Shown: positions 6,492 through 57,892 of the stretch, piece by piece | Position numbering within the stretch: the first letter of the stretch is position 1 | How the letters are laid out: each line of letters begins with the position of its first letter | Assembly: GCA_944363045.1 (NCBI GenBank) | Contig: CALVTT010000001.1 | Coordinates: 19,151 to 83,150, forward strand | Direction of reading: 5' to 3' | DNA: 64,000 nucleotides | DNA from: an uncultured Clostridia bacterium | Lineage (GTDB): Bacteria; Bacillota; Clostridia; Christensenellales; Borkfalkiaceae | Made by a program: the position numbers and the translations under genes | Notes under the pieces: model-generated | Databases searched by the model: none | What the model was told of the DNA's origin: nothing | The model's input: the letters and a program-made list of their open reading frames with translations, nothing else

Positions 6492-6773
6492 CGCTTAAAC
6501 GGGCGCGAAAAGCATATGCGTCGCAATACTTTGTCGGGCTGCGGCAACTTTCAGTCACTTACTCGTCGGAGCAAGGCGAATTTTGCGGGCGTCTGCCATA
6601 GGGCAAACGCCGCGCTTATAACGCCTGCTCCTCCTCTTCCCACAAATCTTTTGCTTCGCAAAATCTTTGCGGGATCCCTGTAAGCTCCCTCAAGTTTTCC
6701 TCGCCCTTCTCGTCTTGCTCGTATCTGCTTTCCGGGCGTTATACAGGGTAACTCAATTTGATTCGGAGGTCAT
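6492..6773 (+). repeat. non-coding insert inside the V-ATPase operon, related to the element at 63607-64000
   Basis: All other gene pairs in this operon are 0-64 nt apart, but 282 nt separate ntpC from the next gene. No convincing frame is present. The ends carry an 8-bp inverted repeat TATAACGC (6487-6494) and GCGTTATA (6736-6743). An internal block at 6581-6673 aligns with 63660-63752, sharing the words TTTTGCGGGC, AACGCCGCGC, CTCCTCTTC and AAATCTTTT in the same order. It contains a small hairpin around GCTTCGC. It looks like a MITE-like or other small repeated element; no transposase is seen. Confidence 0.55.
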
Positions 6774-17622: not shown

Positions 17623-18537
17623 ATGGCAGGATTTACGGCAAAGGACGTCATGACGCTCCGTGAACAGACGGGCGCGGGCATGATGGACTGCAAGAAGGCC
17701 CTCACCGATGCAGAGGGCGATATGAGCAAGGCGGCAGATCTTCTGCGCGAGCGCGGCATCGCAAAGGCTGCCAAGCGCGCTTCCAAGATCGCGGCAGAGG
17801 GCGTCGTCTACGCCTATGTCGAGGGCAAGACGGGCGTGCTCGTCGAAGTCAACTGCGAGTCCGACTTCGTTGCCAAGGGCGACAGGTTCCGCGCCCTCGT
17901 CGAGACGGTCGCAAAGCAGATCGCGGCGACAAAGCCGCAGGACGTCGAAACGCTGCTCGCTTCCGCGCTCCCTTCGGGCGAGACGGTCGAAGCGTTCGTC
18001 ACCGATCAGACCGCCGTCATCGGCGAAAAGATCTCCGTCCGCCGCTTCACGGTGTATGAGAGCGCCGGCCACATCGAGACGTATATCCACATGGGCGGCA
18101 CGATGGGCGTCATGCTCAACTTCGCCTGCGAAGAGAACGACGTCACGAAGGAGCTTGCGCACAACGTCGCGCTCCACGTCGCCTTCTCCAAGCCTCAGTA
18201 CATGACGAAGGACGAAGTCTCCGAGGAAACGCTTGCCAAGGAGAAGGAGATCCTCATGAAGGAAGTCATGAACGAGGGCAAGCCCGCGAACATCGCCGAA
18301 AAGATCGTGCTCGGCAAGATCAAGAAGTTCTACGAGGAGAACTGCCTGCTCGACCAGAAGTTCATCAAGGACGACAAGGTGACCATCGCCCAGCTCATCG
18401 CCGAGGAATCGAAGAAGGCCGGCTGCCCCGTGGAGCTCAAGGCGTTCTGCTTCTATGTCATGGGTCAGGGCCTCGAGAAGAAGAGCGAGGATCTGCAGGA
18501 GGAAGTCGCCAAGCAGGTCGAGGCGATGAAGAAATAA
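17623..18537 (+). CDS. tsf: translation elongation factor Ts
   Basis: EF-Ts recycles EF-Tu by driving out GDP. The 304-aa protein shows the N-terminal UBA-like helix with LREQTGAGMMDCKKAL and the core motif VNCESDFVA, followed by the MHIA-like region HNVALHVAFSKPQY. AGGAGG precedes the ATG. In most Firmicutes pyrH follows directly; here a repeat nest and another gene intervene. Confidence 0.97.
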   Translation: MAGFTAKDVMTLREQTGAGMMDCKKALTDAEGDMSKAADLLRERGIAKAAKRASKIAAEGVVYAYVEGKTGVLVEVNCESDFVAKGDRFRALVETVAKQIAATKPQDVETLLASALPSGETVEAFVTDQTAVIGEKISVRRFTVYESAGHIETYIHMGGTMGVMLNFACEENDVTKELAHNVALHVAFSKPQYMTKDEVSEETLAKEKEILMKEVMNEGKPANIAEKIVLGKIKKFYEENCLLDQKFIKDDKVTIAQLIAEESKKAGCPVELKAFCFYVMGQGLEKKSEDLQEEVAKQVEAMKK

Positions 18538-18544
18538 GTTCACA

Positions 18545-18710
18545 CTTTTTTGCGCAAGCGCAAAAAAGTCGTGAGGGGTGGAGTGTTGCGATTTTAACTT
18601 ATTTTATCGCCCGCGAATTCATCTGTCATTCTAAGAACACTAAGCCTCAAGTATGAGGCAAATTGAGTGAGCCAGCGCAAGGGAACCTTGCTTGGCTCAT
18701 TTTATTTTTA
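18545..18710 (+). ncRNA. dispersed structured repeat, copy 1 (three hairpins, stems covary with copy at 38485)
   Basis: It starts 8 nt after tsf. Hairpin 0 pairs 18545-18555 with 18558-18568 across a central AA. A conserved stretch follows (about 18571-18643, including the GCGAT/ATCGC pair and ATCTGTCATTCTAAGAACA). Hairpin 1 pairs GCCTC 18644-18648 with GAGGC 18655-18659, then comes the linker AAATTGAGT (18660-18668). Hairpin 2 pairs 18668-18674 with 18693-18699 and 18677-18682 with 18686-18691, around an internal loop GC/T. A TTTTATTTTTA run follows, so hairpin 2 also serves as the tsf terminator. Function beyond termination is unknown. Confidence 0.6.
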
Positions 18711-19250
18711 GAAGCAACAAAGGGCAACCCTCCTCGCGGGATTTTATTTTAGAAATTCACGAATTTCTTTCGCTGCGCGAAACAAATTCCGTGAGAAAAT
18801 TTCGCGAAAATCTTTTTGCTGCGCAAAAATCTTTCCGCGAGTTTAAGTGCCCTGCGGGTACAAATTGAGTCCCGCAGCGGAGGGCAACCCTCCTTGCGGC
18901 ATTATTGGGGAACCAACTCCCTCAGTCTCGCTTTGCTCGACAGCGTCTCGCGCGATAGAGACCGCGCTTCGGTCAGGAAACGGCGCGCACAATGCGCCGT
19001 TTCCAAGTTCGCAAGTGGTCAAAGCCACACCGTGGCTTTGCCAAGAAAGCACTTGCTCACCCTCAAAGAGGGAGCCACGGGGGTTAGCGTTGTTTCCTTG
19101 CCTCCCTCTGAGAGGGAGGTGCCCCGAAGGGGCGGAAGGAGTTATCTGATCGCAGGCTTCCGCTTGCGGAGCGAACGATTCGATCTTAACAGGCGGTTTC
19201 GGTCGCCTGTTTTTTCGGCTCTCTATTTTCAATATAATATAATTTTCAAA
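18711..19250 (+). repeat. repeat nest between tsf and the cytidylate-kinase-like gene
   Basis: This stretch has no credible gene. In order it holds a decayed hairpin-2 arm (around AGGGCAACCCT, 18720-18731), hairpins with TGC loops (TTTCGC/GCGAAA near 18768 and TTTTTGC/GCAAAAA near 18813), and a third two-hairpin unit (18845-18899). Next come the sequence CTCCCTCAGTCTCGCT (18917-18932), which recurs inverted at about 38711-38726, and small inverted repeats such as GTGGCTTTG/CAAAGCCAC. The word CCTCCCTCTGAGAGGGAGG lies near 19109. It looks like layered remnants of small non-coding elements. Confidence 0.55.
18845..18899 (+). ncRNA. two-hairpin unit, second copy of the hairpin1-linker-hairpin2 module
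   Basis: AAG precedes hairpin 1 (GTGCCC 18847-18852 with GGGTAC 18856-18861, one G-T wobble). The linker AAATTGAGT (18862-18870) follows, then hairpin 2: outer CCGCA 18872-18876 with TGCGG 18895-18899, internal loop GC/T, inner GGAGGG 18879-18884 with CCCTCC 18888-18893, loop CAA. Both stems differ in sequence from the copies at 18641 and 38581 yet pair fully, while linker and internal loop are the same. Confidence 0.55.
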
Positions 19251-36972: not shown

Positions 36973-38490
36973 ATGATCTCAAACGTGACTTGTTTTGCGT
37001 TGGCGGGGCTCGAAGGGGTGCCCGTCACGGTGGAGACGGACGTCAACAGGGGCGTGCCCGCCTTTGAAATGGTGGGCCTTCCCGACGCCGCCGTCAAGGA
37101 GTCCAAGGAGCGCGTGCGCTCCGCCCTCAAAAACAGCGGCTTTCAATTTCCCGTCGTCAAAGTCACCGTCAACCTCGCTCCCGCCGACCTTAAAAAGGAG
37201 GGCGCCGTCTTCGACCTTGCCGTTGCCATCGGCCTTTTGAAAGCGAGCGAGCAGCTCGTGGGGGCAAACCTTGCAGGCATCGTCTTTTTGGGTGAGCTCT
37301 CCCTCGACGGCAGCCTCCGTCCCGTCAGGGGGCTCCTGCCCATCCTCATTTCCGCCAAGTCGCGCGGCTTTACCACCTTCGTCATCCCTGCCGCCAATGC
37401 GGGCGAGGCGCGCTTTTTAGACGGCGTCACCGTCTATCCCTGTTCCACGCTCATGCAGGCCGTCAAGTTCCTTGTCGGCGCCGAACGGCCCGAGCCCGTC
37501 AAACCCGTCCGCTATGTGCCCGGGGCGAGAGGGGAGAGCTCTTCCGACTTGAAATTCGTCAAAGGCCAGCCTCTGGCGCGGCGGGCGGTGGAGATCGCCG
37601 TCGCAGGCGGGCACAACTTGCTCCTCGTCGGCCCGCCCGGCACGGGCAAGACGATGATCGCCCGCTGTATCCCCACCATCATGCCCGACCTTTCCTTCGA
37701 CGAGGCGCTCCAGATCACCAAGATCCACTCCGTCGCAGGCATTTTGGGCGAGGAGGGCATCGTCACCGAGCGGCCCTTCCGCACGCCCCACCATACGGCG
37801 ACCACCGTCTCCATGTGCGGCGGCGGCAACCGCGTGGTGCATCCCGGCGAAATTTCCCTCGCGCACGGCGGCGTGCTCTTTTTGGACGAGCTGCCCGAAT
37901 ACAAGCGCTCGACTTTGGAGGCGCTGCGCCAGCCCCTCGAGGACGGCAGGATCACCATCTCCCGCTCGGGCGGCAGCTGCACCTATCCCGCGCGCTTCAT
38001 GCTCTGCGCGAGCATGAACCCCTGCCCCTGCGGTAACTACGGGTCGGAAAAACTCACCTGTACCTGTACGCCCGCCGAGATCAGAAATTACCGCCGCAAG
38101 GTGTCGGGGCCCCTTTTGGACCGCATCGACCTTCAGGTGGAGGTGGATGCCATCGGCTACGACGACCTCACGGCAGATACGGCGCAGGAAAGCTCCGCCT
38201 CCGTCCGCGAGCGCGTCAACGGGGCAAGGCGCATCCAGCGCAACCGCTTCGAAGAGAAGCCCATCCACACCAATGCCGAGATGGGGGAGCGGGAACTGAG
38301 GGAGTTCTGCGCGCTCTCGCCCGAGTGCGACCGCATCTTGCGCGACGCCTTCGAGCGCATGCAGCTCTCGGCGCGGGCACGGGCGCGCATCATCAAAGTG
38401 GCGCGCACCATCGCCGATCTCGACCAGAGCGAGGATATCATGCCCCGCCATATGTTTGAGGCGGTGTCGTATCGTATTTCATTTCGTTGA
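36973..38490 (+). CDS. comM: YifB/ComM-family AAA+ ATPase (Mg-chelatase-like)
   Basis: ComM-type helicases promote branch migration during transformation in some bacteria. The 505-aa protein has an N-terminal Lon-like domain (GLPDAAVKESKERVRSAL near 36), a P-loop GPPGTGKT (about 226-233), Walker B GVLFLDELPE, a four-cysteine loop CPCGNYG...CTCTP (about 353-370), and a C-terminal Mg-chelatase domain. ATG 36973 has GGGGGAACGG upstream; the frame extends upstream without support. It is next to dprA, as in many Firmicutes. Role in this organism is inferred. Confidence 0.93.
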   Translation: MISNVTCFALAGLEGVPVTVETDVNRGVPAFEMVGLPDAAVKESKERVRSALKNSGFQFPVVKVTVNLAPADLKKEGAVFDLAVAIGLLKASEQLVGANLAGIVFLGELSLDGSLRPVRGLLPILISAKSRGFTTFVIPAANAGEARFLDGVTVYPCSTLMQAVKFLVGAERPEPVKPVRYVPGARGESSSDLKFVKGQPLARRAVEIAVAGGHNLLLVGPPGTGKTMIARCIPTIMPDLSFDEALQITKIHSVAGILGEEGIVTERPFRTPHHTATTVSMCGGGNRVVHPGEISLAHGGVLFLDELPEYKRSTLEALRQPLEDGRITISRSGGSCTYPARFMLCASMNPCPCGNYGSEKLTCTCTPAEIRNYRRKVSGPLLDRIDLQVEVDAIGYDDLTADTAQESSASVRERVNGARRIQRNRFEEKPIHTNAEMGERELREFCALSPECDRILRDAFERMQLSARARARIIKVARTIADLDQSEDIMPRHMFEAVSYRISFR

Positions 38491-38644
38491 TTTTTAGCAA
38501 GCTAAAAATCAACGAGGGGCGGGCTACGCGATTTTAAGCATCGTTATCGCCCGCGAACGCATCTGTCATTCTAAGAACAATAAGCCTCTGGTAAGAGGCA
38601 AATTGGGTCTCGCAGCGCAAAAGCGTGGTTTTGCTTGCGGAAAT
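38485..38644 (+). ncRNA. dispersed structured repeat, copy 2
   Basis: Hairpin 0 is a 30-nt palindrome with AA at its centre (38485-38498 with 38501-38514) and includes the comM stop codon. The stretch 38511-38583 matches that after tsf, including GCGAT/ATCGC and ATCTGTCATTCTAAGAACA. Hairpin 1 pairs GCCTC 38584-38588 with GAGGC 38595-38599; the linker is AAATTGGGT (38600-38608). Hairpin 2 pairs TCGCA 38610-38614 with TGCGG 38636-38640 and GCAAAA 38617-38622 with TTTTGC 38629-38634, with internal loop GC/T and loop GCGTGG. Hairpins 0 and 2 have other sequences than in copy 1 but the same form. Confidence 0.6.
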
Positions 38645-38876
38645 AATTTAAGAAGCAGCGAGGGAAACCGCGTCCCTCTTGGCTCCTTCTCTGAGGGAGC
38701 TGTCGAGCGCAGCGAGACTGAGGGAGTCGCATTATTATAAAATGCAAGAGTTCGGCAAAGGCAGTTCTCTTCATTGCACGAGAAAGTGCCGCGTGCAGCG
38801 TGACGGAAGGTGTAAAACTTTCCGCAAAAGCTGCGTCGGCGGGTTTTGCGGAAAAATATAAAACAAGGAGGCGGAT
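38645..38876 (+). repeat. further repeats before dprA
   Basis: A second hairpin-2-like arm (AGCAGCGAGGG with CCCTCTTGGCT, about 38652-38685) is followed by GGAGCTGTCGAGCGCAGCGAGACTGAGGGAGT-type sequence (about 38695-38728), the inverse of the repeat near 18915. Close to dprA, TTTCCGCAAAA and TTTTGCGGAAA (about 38818-38855) form a hairpin followed by AATATA. No gene is supported. Confidence 0.5.
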
Positions 38877-48847: not shown

Positions 48848-48893
48848 GACGGATCGTCGGGTCTGCTTGAAAATAACCGCATGATGCGATCAT

Positions 48894-49005
48894 AAGGGGA
48901 ATGATGTCTCCCCGCAGGGCTGTTTCGGCATTGCCGCCGAACTCCCTCGAACCGCTGAAAAAGCTGATGACGTCTGCGTAGTTACGCGGAGCATCGGCTT
49001 TTTTT
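48894..49005 (+). promoter_or_regulatory. fluoride riboswitch (crcB motif) with overlapping terminator
   Basis: The aptamer contains AAGGGGAATGATGTCTCCCC and, after an extra hairpin (about 48913-48948), AACCGCTGAAAAAGCTGATG followed by ACGTCTGC. GATGTC (48903-48908) can pair with GACGTC (48969-48974) to make the long-range helix of the fold. The terminator uses the same 3' part: 48962-48979 pairs with 48984-48999, then seven T residues. Fluoride binding should thus prevent termination. Confidence 0.87.
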
Positions 49006-57020: not shown

Positions 57021-57224
57021 TCATTCAAGGAGATCGTCGAGGGAGACGTCGTAGAGCCGCGCGAGCTTGATAAAATTTTGCAAGGTGGGCACATTCACGC
57101 CCCATTCATACGCCTGATAGGACTGCGTGGCGATGCCGAGCTTTTCCGCCACCTGTTTTTGGGTGTATCCGTACTGCAAGCGCAGCGCTTTCAGGTTTTT
57201 TGCCAAGTTATAAAGCTCGTTCAT
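57021..57224 (-). CDS. 67-aa XRE-type HTH protein, second of a tandem pair
   Basis: The whole protein is one XRE helix-turn-helix: NLKALRLQYGYTQKQVAEKLG, then a recognition helix with ATQSYQAYEWG, then LQNFIKLARLYDVSLDDLLE. It is 53 of 67 residues identical to its upstream neighbour and their last 23 residues are the same. ATG 57224 lies 1 nt after that neighbour's stop, so they are co-transcribed. The recognition helix is where the two differ most, suggesting related but separate DNA sites. Role unknown; autoregulation is likely. Confidence 0.85.
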   Translation of the reverse strand: MNELYNLAKNLKALRLQYGYTQKQVAEKLGIATQSYQAYEWGVNVPTLQNFIKLARLYDVSLDDLLE

Positions 57225-57225
57225 G

Positions 57226-57429
57226 TCATTCGAGGAGATCGTCGAGCGAGACGTCGTAGAGCCGTGCGAGTTTGATAAAGTTTTGCAAGGTGGGCACGGT
57301 GATGCCCGCCTCATAGGCGTGATAGGACTGCGGCGTGATGCCGAGCTGTTCTGCGACGAACTGCTGCGTATAGCCGTATTGCCGCCGCAATGCCTTGAGA
57401 TTTTCGGGTAATTTATACAACTCTTGCAA
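57226..57429 (-). CDS. 67-aa XRE-type HTH protein, first of a tandem pair
   Basis: This is a minimal XRE domain protein (NLKALRRQYGYTQQFVAEQLG, TPQSYHAYEAG, then the C-terminal stretch shared with its neighbour). I place the start at TTG 57429, because GGAGG is 7 nt upstream and the product then has exactly the 67-aa length of the paralogue; GTG 57447 lies ahead of the ribosome-binding site. Two palindromes lie just upstream between it and a divergent small gene. The pair may bind as homo- or heterodimers. Confidence 0.83.
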   Translation of the reverse strand: MQELYKLPENLKALRRQYGYTQQFVAEQLGITPQSYHAYEAGITVPTLQNFIKLARLYDVSLDDLLE

Positions 57430-57712: not shown

Positions 57713-57727
57713 AAAATCATCGAATAT

Positions 57728-57892
57728 TCTTTGGGGCGGAGTGCAAGTCTCCACCGGCAGTAAAGTCTGCGAAGGGCCGCGTGCCCCCGAACGGGTGAAA
57801 TTCCCGTACCGACGGTATAGTCCGGATGAGAAAAGAAAAACAGCTTTTTTCGCGCCCCTCCATATCCTATGGAAAGGGCGCTCTTTTGTTGC
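57728..57892 (+). promoter_or_regulatory. FMN riboswitch (RFN element) with terminator, controlling ribU
   Basis: The aptamer (57728-57838) has the RFN landmarks TTGGGGCGGAGTGCAAGTC, CACCGGCAGTAAAG, GGGCCGCGTGCCCCCG, GGGTGAAATTCCCGTACCGA and CGGTATAGTCCGGATGAGA. Downstream GCGCCCCTCCATA pairs with TATGGAAAGGGCGC (about 57853-57883), followed by TCTTTTG, an intrinsic terminator. FMN should repress ribU. Confidence 0.94.

Follow-up and report, generated by a model that had tools for sequence, protein, structure and literature searches.

The window analysed here is a 64,000-nucleotide stretch from an uncultured Clostridia bacterium (assembly GCA_944363045.1, also labelled G000; 1.77 Mb, 79% complete), whose relatives are labelled below by G and a number. 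It contains two long copies of a repeat made of hairpins and constant blocks, both on the forward strand. Gene calls came from a small codon model, for which seven genes of the window served as training set, and Pfam identified the products encoded upstream of the two copies as EF-Ts and a ComM-type Mg-chelatase protein. Unit 1 runs from 18538 to about 18715, immediately 3' of the tsf stop codon (18535-18537). Unit 2 runs from 38482 to about 38650, with the comM stop codon (38488-38490) lying inside its first hairpin, h0. Full units measure about 165-180 nt in the order h0, B, h1, h2, and short (h0-h1-h2), solitary and tandem forms also occur. The features in and around the window copies are as follows.

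18538..18575, + strand: unit 1 module A, h0 (TTCACACTTTTTTGCG.../...GTGAG), directly after the tsf stop codon
18576..18643, + strand: unit 1 module B, GATTTTAAC ... TCGCCCGC ... TGT-CATTCTAAGA-ACA, with a weak small stem
18644..18659, + strand: unit 1 module C, h1 (GCCTCA/TGAGGC), then AAATTGAG
18669..18698, + strand: unit 1 module D, h2, with outer stem GAGCC/GGCTC, inner stem GCAAGG/CCTTGC and an internal loop
18699..18715, + strand: AT-rich 3' linker of unit 1, T-rich here, the family average being without a U-tract
18713..18735, + strand: degenerate solitary h2-like fragment (AAGGGCAACCCTCCTCGCGGG), found by inspection
18756..18795, + strand: solitary h0-like hairpin (TTCACGAATTTCTTTCGC.../...GTGAG), found by inspection, of a type that serves as h0 in relatives
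18800..18899, + strand: short unit of A-C-D form (own-genome match C1:37978-38056, E 6.4e-10), the third copy of the first-pass annotation; its parts are h0 at 18800-18841, h1 at 18847-18861, AAATTGAG, and h2 at 18872-18899
38482..38516, + strand: unit 2 module A, h0 (CGTTGATTTTTAGC/...ATCAACG), which overlaps the final comM codons, stop included
38517..38583, + strand: unit 2 module B, with TGT...ACA present
38584..38599, + strand: unit 2 module C, h1 (GCCTCT/AGAGGC), then AAATTGGG
38610..38640, + strand: unit 2 module D, h2, with inner stem GCAAAA/TTTTGC

The first-pass annotation, made from the window alone, had described two long copies with common blocks and with first and last hairpins that differ in stem sequence and still pair. 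Both copies are present at the tsf and comM 3' ends and have in common the blocks ATCTGTCATTCTAAGAACA and AAATTGRG. Pairing of h0 and h2 holds within each copy, and the inner h2 stems differ as claimed (GCAAGG/CCTTGC versus GCAAAA/TTTTGC). The predicted fold of each unit was better than those of 200 out of 200 dinucleotide shuffles, with z-scores of -5.7 for unit 1 and -4.4 for unit 2. The third copy had been taken to comprise only the last part of the repeat. Its h1 and h2 are indeed present, but it also has its own first hairpin fused to them (18800-18841), and it is therefore a variant unit.

Other repeats occupy the same intergenic space. A second dispersed repeat (ACTCCCTCAGTCTCGC...GCTGTCGAGC) adjoins the window units at 18916-18944 and 38699-38727; elsewhere it occurs as CTTGCCTCCCTC...GAGGGAGGTGCC beside many units, and several intergenic repeat families are interleaved. 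On the minus strand, a hairpin repeat (GATCCCGCAAAGATTTTGCGAAGC...) at 6653-6676 and in the surroundings resembles the AAATCTT type of h0 and is part of another recurring block, which also splits module B in two units of the relative G269 (sites C7:4622 and C58:1081). The window also holds two neighbouring direct copies of a 203-nt sequence at 57021-57428, with 77% identity.

BLAST with unit 1 returned 49 pieces in its own genome at E up to 10. As the first-pass annotation had proposed, a covariance model was built and searched against the genome. The model, R1, covers the B-h1-h2 part and was built from 24 aligned full units of that genome, in which it found 51 matches at E up to 10 and 41 at E < 1e-8; 34 matches spanned R1 at E below 1e-24, the 24 model-building units included. 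The 20-nt block, allowing up to three mismatches, occurred at four places and the reversed pattern at none. Further copies are thus present by the dozen in the genome itself, and R1 at E 0.01 matched 128 of 301 genomes of the family in 7 of 18 genera, with up to 11 candidates scored per genome. Within the genus, 47 genomes had matches (that of the window included) and five listed genomes had none. An order-wide sample gave matches at E 1e-4 in 22 of 396 genomes, every one in the same family and together representing 3 of 142 genera.

Searching named genomes for the exact core pattern yielded at least 118 stretches, 80 of which were retained as loci. Nearly all of these are labelled 'uncultured Clostridia bacterium' (isolates Lapin and BRZ), and three belong to Candidatus Gallimonas gallistercoris. 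One locus in a Sediminibacterium bin had no model match and is probably a chance occurrence. Carriage by phages or plasmids was rejected, with zero exact-core matches in viral contigs and no BLAST match to unit 1 in phage and plasmid collections. Scanning the whole window against Rfam 15 at gathering scores returned only an FMN riboswitch (57723-57841) and a fluoride riboswitch (48888-48983), leaving the hairpin repeat unmatched. A known Rfam family had been named in advance as a competing outcome, and a lenient scan of six loci of the genome yielded nine matches at E up to 1, none of which reached the gathering score. The FMN riboswitch itself is present in 59 of 61 genus genomes searched. 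Targeted full-text literature searches, a scope outside which the individual motifs of PMC8040213 lie, showed no description of the hairpin repeat. This dispersed repeat, which belongs to a family of uncultured gut Clostridia, thus appears to be undescribed.

Among 229 unique copies, the 209 of at least 110 nt were placed relative to called genes, and an upstream gene was called for 188. Units are co-directional with this gene in 154 cases and opposed in 34. In 56 of the 154 co-directional copies, the stop codon and the first constant block are 33-50 nt apart, which is the length of h0; the remaining ones are second or later units of arrays, or follow other repeats. At 20 of 21 sites in the genome itself (21 retained of 24 tried), an h0-type hairpin starts 0-6 nt past the stop codon; the tsf and comM copies had been reported to begin at gene ends. 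This leading hairpin is the unit's own h0 at 15 sites and a solitary h0, or h0 plus another repeat, at five. Only the stop codon and 0-6 variable bases precede h0 at these 20 sites, and h0 mostly opens with GTTCAC, ATTCAC or TTTCG. The exception is site C52:9670, at which the unit sits behind a terminator. There (loci L012 and L308) a full unit in the genome corresponds to a solitary hairpin with a different sequence (AAGGCTTTTTTGCG...) in G269, which suggests that hairpins can act as landing sites.

Placement behind stop codons agrees well with the earlier suggestion of a 3'-UTR element. Orientation (154/188 co-directional) and closeness to the stop codon (20/21 sites) also argue for a functional 3'-UTR RNA, in which case the folded RNA would regulate how stable the upstream gene's mRNA is or how its translation terminates, units would be kept for that reason, and mobility would be secondary. 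However, the ten upstream genes tested with Pfam are functionally unrelated, encoding EF-Ts, Mg-chelatase/ComM, the SRP GTPase, serine dehydratase, an EF-G-like protein, a PLP enzyme, the acetolactate synthase small subunit, a DeoR regulator, a Clp ATPase and ribosomal protein S18.

Comparison with relatives revealed that the same gene ends may be occupied or empty. The comM gene was located in 60 of 61 genus genomes, and by inspection the comM-dprA junction is empty in 28 of 30 genomes read, with the next gene following shortly after; units are present in the genome of the window and in G269. At the tsf 3' end, full units occur in the genome of the window and in G235, a short unit in G269 and a divergent unit in G316. 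No unit was seen there in other readable relatives (30 loci; six unreadable, one gene end misassigned). We then used the 21 gene ends of the genome as a joined query and fetched the orthologous regions. Occupancy was 18/20 and 19/20 in the close species G269 and G215, and 5/20 and 6/20 in the more distant species G235 and G316. Because occupancy varies within the genus, and five listed genomes of the same genus lack any match, the RNA is not essential, which counts against the functional-RNA explanation.

Terminators offer a second view of occupied and empty sites. A crude scan within 110 nt of the stop codon was positive at 12 of 29 empty sites (G235 and G316) versus 3 of 48 filled sites, and the three consist of a hairpin plus T-run within module B. 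In filled G215, a terminator at +402 of site C4:35444 is similar to the one that empty relatives have at +12/+18. At C34:6434, relatives have a terminator at +37/+61, and filled sites have one at +245, +294 and +551; at C9:3463 it lies at +7 in relatives and at +450 when filled, the letters differing at both of these sites. Given that at three sites the filled locus has its terminator only 245-551 nt downstream, versus directly after the gene in relatives, units appear to have been inserted into 3' UTRs. The simplest account is insertion between a stop codon and its terminator, or between the genes of an operon. Judged from this position only, units should belong to the mRNA.

These observations also bear on whether units are mobile transcription terminators that replace native ones, which we regard as very unlikely. 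Strong hairpins do lie directly after genes, terminators are found more often at empty than at filled sites, those at filled sites fall in module B, and the scan flags B or h2 at sites C47:3423, C48:2272, C17:13199, C69:257 and C52:9670. Against this, there is no average U-run behind h2, h0 or h1, and the 14 letters after h2 average roughly MAGTAATTTNRGAA across 127 copies. A terminator lies further downstream at three filled sites, although its sequence is native-like at only one. The first-pass annotation had read the end of the repeat as terminator-like: the hairpin h2 is there, but a typical terminator is doubtful on average, even though the crude scan flags some units. Function as an intrinsic terminator is weakened accordingly.

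Insertion as the direction of change is what the comparisons suggest, gain and loss being inseparable at some sites. MITEs are marked by terminal inverted repeats and a target-site duplication. By eye, no target-site duplication or fixed target sequence was seen at comM and the 21 sites, where empty sites come from other species and boundaries are not base-exact. The idea of a hairpin-ended mobile element, raised at first as one of three options, fits well with units that are present or absent between related species, modular and often tandem.

We next consider the pairing. In 24 units of the genome, RNAalifold identified two-sided changes at 12 of 20 predicted pairs. Among 131 distinct foreign copies, taken from named genomes, 92.0% of stem cells pair, compared with 34.5-53.0% when partners are slid by 1-3 columns. 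Two-sided changes affect 627 cells, where shuffling gives a mean of 228.5, and the covariation score reaches 0.566 compared with 0.157 when shuffled; a two-sided change of any kind occurs at 17 of 20 pairs, just over the shuffle mean of 14.6. Since this alignment had been fitted to the model, 114 full-length copies were also aligned structure-blind. Ranks 1-5 of 7503 corrected column-pair scores then fell within the h1 and h2 stems, with h2 pairs correct to within one column of register. The column pairs at ranks 6 and 7, and several below them, link stem letters with loop letters that do not pair, as expected from recurring hairpin types. Covariation in the larger alignment is therefore very strong, as the first-pass annotation had anticipated, and no formal p-value is attached to it because copies within one genome are non-independent.

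Individual stems differ in how strictly they pair. In 223 distinct copies there are 37 arm combinations for h1 and 23 for inner h2, mismatched ones included. Pairing is intact in 176 of 200 copies for h1, 205 of 210 for inner h2, and 209 of 219 for the first three outer h2 pairs. For the TGT/ACA stem the paired share is 85% of cells, and the lower part of the outer stem of h2 is not a general feature. A long B stem, visible by eye in few copies, was unsupported by a helix scan, so module B was modelled with the short TGT/ACA stem alone. Run on the full alignment, RNAalifold missed h0, whose arm types are too dissimilar to align, and h0 was therefore assessed by single-sequence folds. At least ten pairs form in 89% of 235 distinct h0 windows, and the median energy is -15.0 kcal/mol versus -7.5 kcal/mol for mononucleotide shuffles.

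Such covariation argues for a functional RNA, and the first-pass annotation had taken pairing kept through sequence change as the mark of selection on structure. Pairing is indeed kept, but the step to selection is only partly safe, since whole hairpin types recur. Much of the variation takes the form of whole hairpin types common to different copies, so recombination of ready-made hairpins or template-directed correction of arms may contribute. When entire hairpins are exchanged, covariation is weaker ground than usual for concluding that structure is under selection. As a test of folding as RNA or DNA, we compared G-U with A-C combinations and counted 27 and 6, respectively, in 1757 cells of the 14 best pairs (the count leaves out the TGT/ACA pairs, the first h1 pair and the lower outer h2 pairs). 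The FMN riboswitch, used as a control in 30 genus genomes, was equally poor in G-U (9 of 766 paired cells). The test is thus blind here and was dropped, lending nothing to the functional-RNA explanation.

Shared sites in close species allowed turnover within units to be followed. Gene-end DNA in G269 and G215 is 78-96% identical to that of the genome (median about 91%). Nevertheless, at the same gene ends in these three genomes, only 5 of 46 pairs, three of them at one site, have B modules that are at least 90% alike, versus 1 of 1280 non-orthologous pairs. Identical h1 was found in 5 of 46 ortholog pairs versus 5.9% of non-orthologous pairs, and h0 was at least 90% alike in 8 of 46 versus 7.0%; similarity of orthologs is lowered in these comparisons because 9 of the 46 pairs involve a misparsed short or interrupted unit. 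Mean likeness of module B was 0.70 for ortholog pairs and 0.65 for random pairs. As ortholog pairs are on average just slightly more alike than random ones, some of the turnover could reflect independent insertion on repeated occasions and not module exchange. That the same gene in close species carries different hairpin types is a further point against the functional-RNA explanation, which on balance we consider possible but rather doubtful.

Single sites illustrate how modules change separately. At C4:35444 in G269 and G215, h0 is retained (98%) and B has changed; at C34:6434, B is retained (90%) with h0 and h1 changed; and at C9:3463, h0 and h2 are retained with B and h1 changed. The whole unit is conserved in all three genomes at C11:15756. 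Across 77 distinct units from these three genomes, types at opposite ends are not significantly linked (h0-h1 p 0.08, h0-outer h2 p 0.07, h0-inner h2 p 0.84), whereas adjacent modules are linked (h0-B and h1-outer h2, each p 0.0005). Same-strand neighbours closer than 320 nt number 72, with 65 of these at 158-261 nt. G150 has five units at steps of about 165 nt, and tandem units at the C46:11946 site in G269 have near-identical B and different h0.

Several loci depart from the usual layout. In G265 (L105:330-900), a tandem duplication of a whole unit takes in the 3' end of the upstream gene, with 205-nt spacing. Loci L332 and L353 (G316 and G235) have another long module B with its own large hairpin between h0 and h1, so there are several middle modules. 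The h0 at C48:2272 of the genome (L014:552-726) is a hybrid with a 5' arm of the CGCCGC type and a 3' arm of the GCCGTG type; mainly its inner stem pairs, and it is likely recombinant.

It is quite possible, if short of probable, that a DNA process keeps the pairing, either by correcting arms through replication template switching or by exchanging whole hairpins through gene conversion. Covariation would then be no proof of selection. Hairpin types recur and combine freely, and the h0 at C48:2272 joins arms of two types, as crossing-over in the loop would give. Likewise, the 5' arm of the comM copy is the host sequence CGTTGAT, which is also present in empty G235, and the 3' arm matches it. 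However, the internal loops of h0 and h2 stay unpaired, and arm correction would erase these; arms that are mismatched form a minority.

Movement by a known type of enzyme was also considered. In a REP/REPIN-type system, a Y1 (IS200-like, RAYT) transposase would mobilise the units by working on folded single-stranded DNA. The units resemble REPs in being gene-end palindromes that are mosaic or clustered and kept despite letter changes, as REPs are described in PMC2817692. A Y1_Tnp domain occurs in 15 of 61 genus genomes, G316 included. Yet none was found in the genome of the window (79% complete) or in G269 and G235 (92-93% complete), both unit-rich, and no mobilising enzyme for the hairpin repeat was found. 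The two Y1 loci whose flanks were read resemble ordinary IS200 elements with other hairpins, and the GTAG/TGTGG foot was not seen before h0 on inspection. A Y1/RAYT mover is thus disfavoured, and we rate the REP/REPIN explanation as highly improbable.

Taken together, we favour the explanation that these are short non-coding modular repeats, BOX/BIME-like in kind, that have spread within one family of uncultured gut Clostridia, with a probability of roughly 0.7. Units would arrive by insertion and later change module by module, through recombination or gene conversion via the short constant blocks or through repeated insertion. They are probably non-autonomous and may be copied by a trans-acting activity to which the fold matters more than the stem letters. 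Their persistence behind stop codons could reflect that harm is smallest at this position. Carried in the mRNA, they may influence 3'-end decay or the terminating ribosome.

A more speculative version, which we think unlikely, is a dedicated, enzyme-driven hairpin-exchange system. By analogy with integron integrases and attC, a putative enzyme would read the folded single strand by its shape (internal loops and spacers, as opposed to stem letters) and would swap or insert hairpin cassettes at gene ends, the cassettes here being non-coding 3'-UTR modules. The integron attC site, cited purely as a parallel, has RYYYAAC/GTTRRRY boxes and goes with an integron integrase. If such a system exists, each gene would receive a rapidly changing mRNA tail.

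Spread as modular repeats, the explanation we prefer, has wider implications. Strong covariation in a bacterial intergenic element can come from a mobile repeat that shuffles fast, a point of importance for pipelines in which covariation is used to call structured RNAs. Sites that are shared but carry different hairpins make it possible to test mosaic-repeat turnover directly, together with the question of whether mobility can be guided by shape alone. Strong hairpins a few bases past many stop codons amount to a natural experiment in which translation termination and the 3' ends of mRNAs can be studied. In E. coli, REPs near stop codons can reportedly stall ribosomes, according to the Deutscher laboratory.

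Among known systems, the BOX elements of Streptococcus (boxA-boxB(n)-boxC) are modular short interspersed repeats with an optional or repeated inner module; according to PMC3049150, they have a strong predicted RNA fold, are enriched between convergent genes and vary in insertion among genomes. The hairpin repeat has a similar modular order with an optional inner module (h0-B-h1-h2, h0-h1-h2, solitary h0, tandem), a likeness of description and not of sequence. Unlike BOX, it has three separate covarying hairpins with many stem types, lies few bases past stop codons and mostly in sense, and is repeated in tandem as whole units instead of one inner module. NIMEs (Neisserial intergenic mosaic elements), again likened by description and not by sequence, mix by recombination and have an architecture unlike that of the hairpin repeat. 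These are composite intergenic repeats of 70-200 bp, as outlined in PMC3049150. The 3161 candidate structured RNA motifs found by comparative genomics in human microbiomes (PMC8040213) are, as generally described there, covarying, intergenic and in some cases palindromic, and can be set beside the hairpin repeat to that extent. BIME/REP elements are extragenic palindromes that are mosaic, clustered and kept despite altered letters, according to PMC2817692 and PMC3116915. The hairpin repeat likewise consists of extragenic palindromes clustered near gene 3' ends. It differs from BIME/REP/REPIN elements in that units run head-to-tail and not in alternating orientation, that each unit comprises three different hairpins with constant spacers, that a GTAG foot is absent, and that no link to RAYT was found. 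With the BOX likeness resting on description, and with the REP foot and RAYT aside, the hairpin repeat is nearest in kind to BOX elements and BIMEs.
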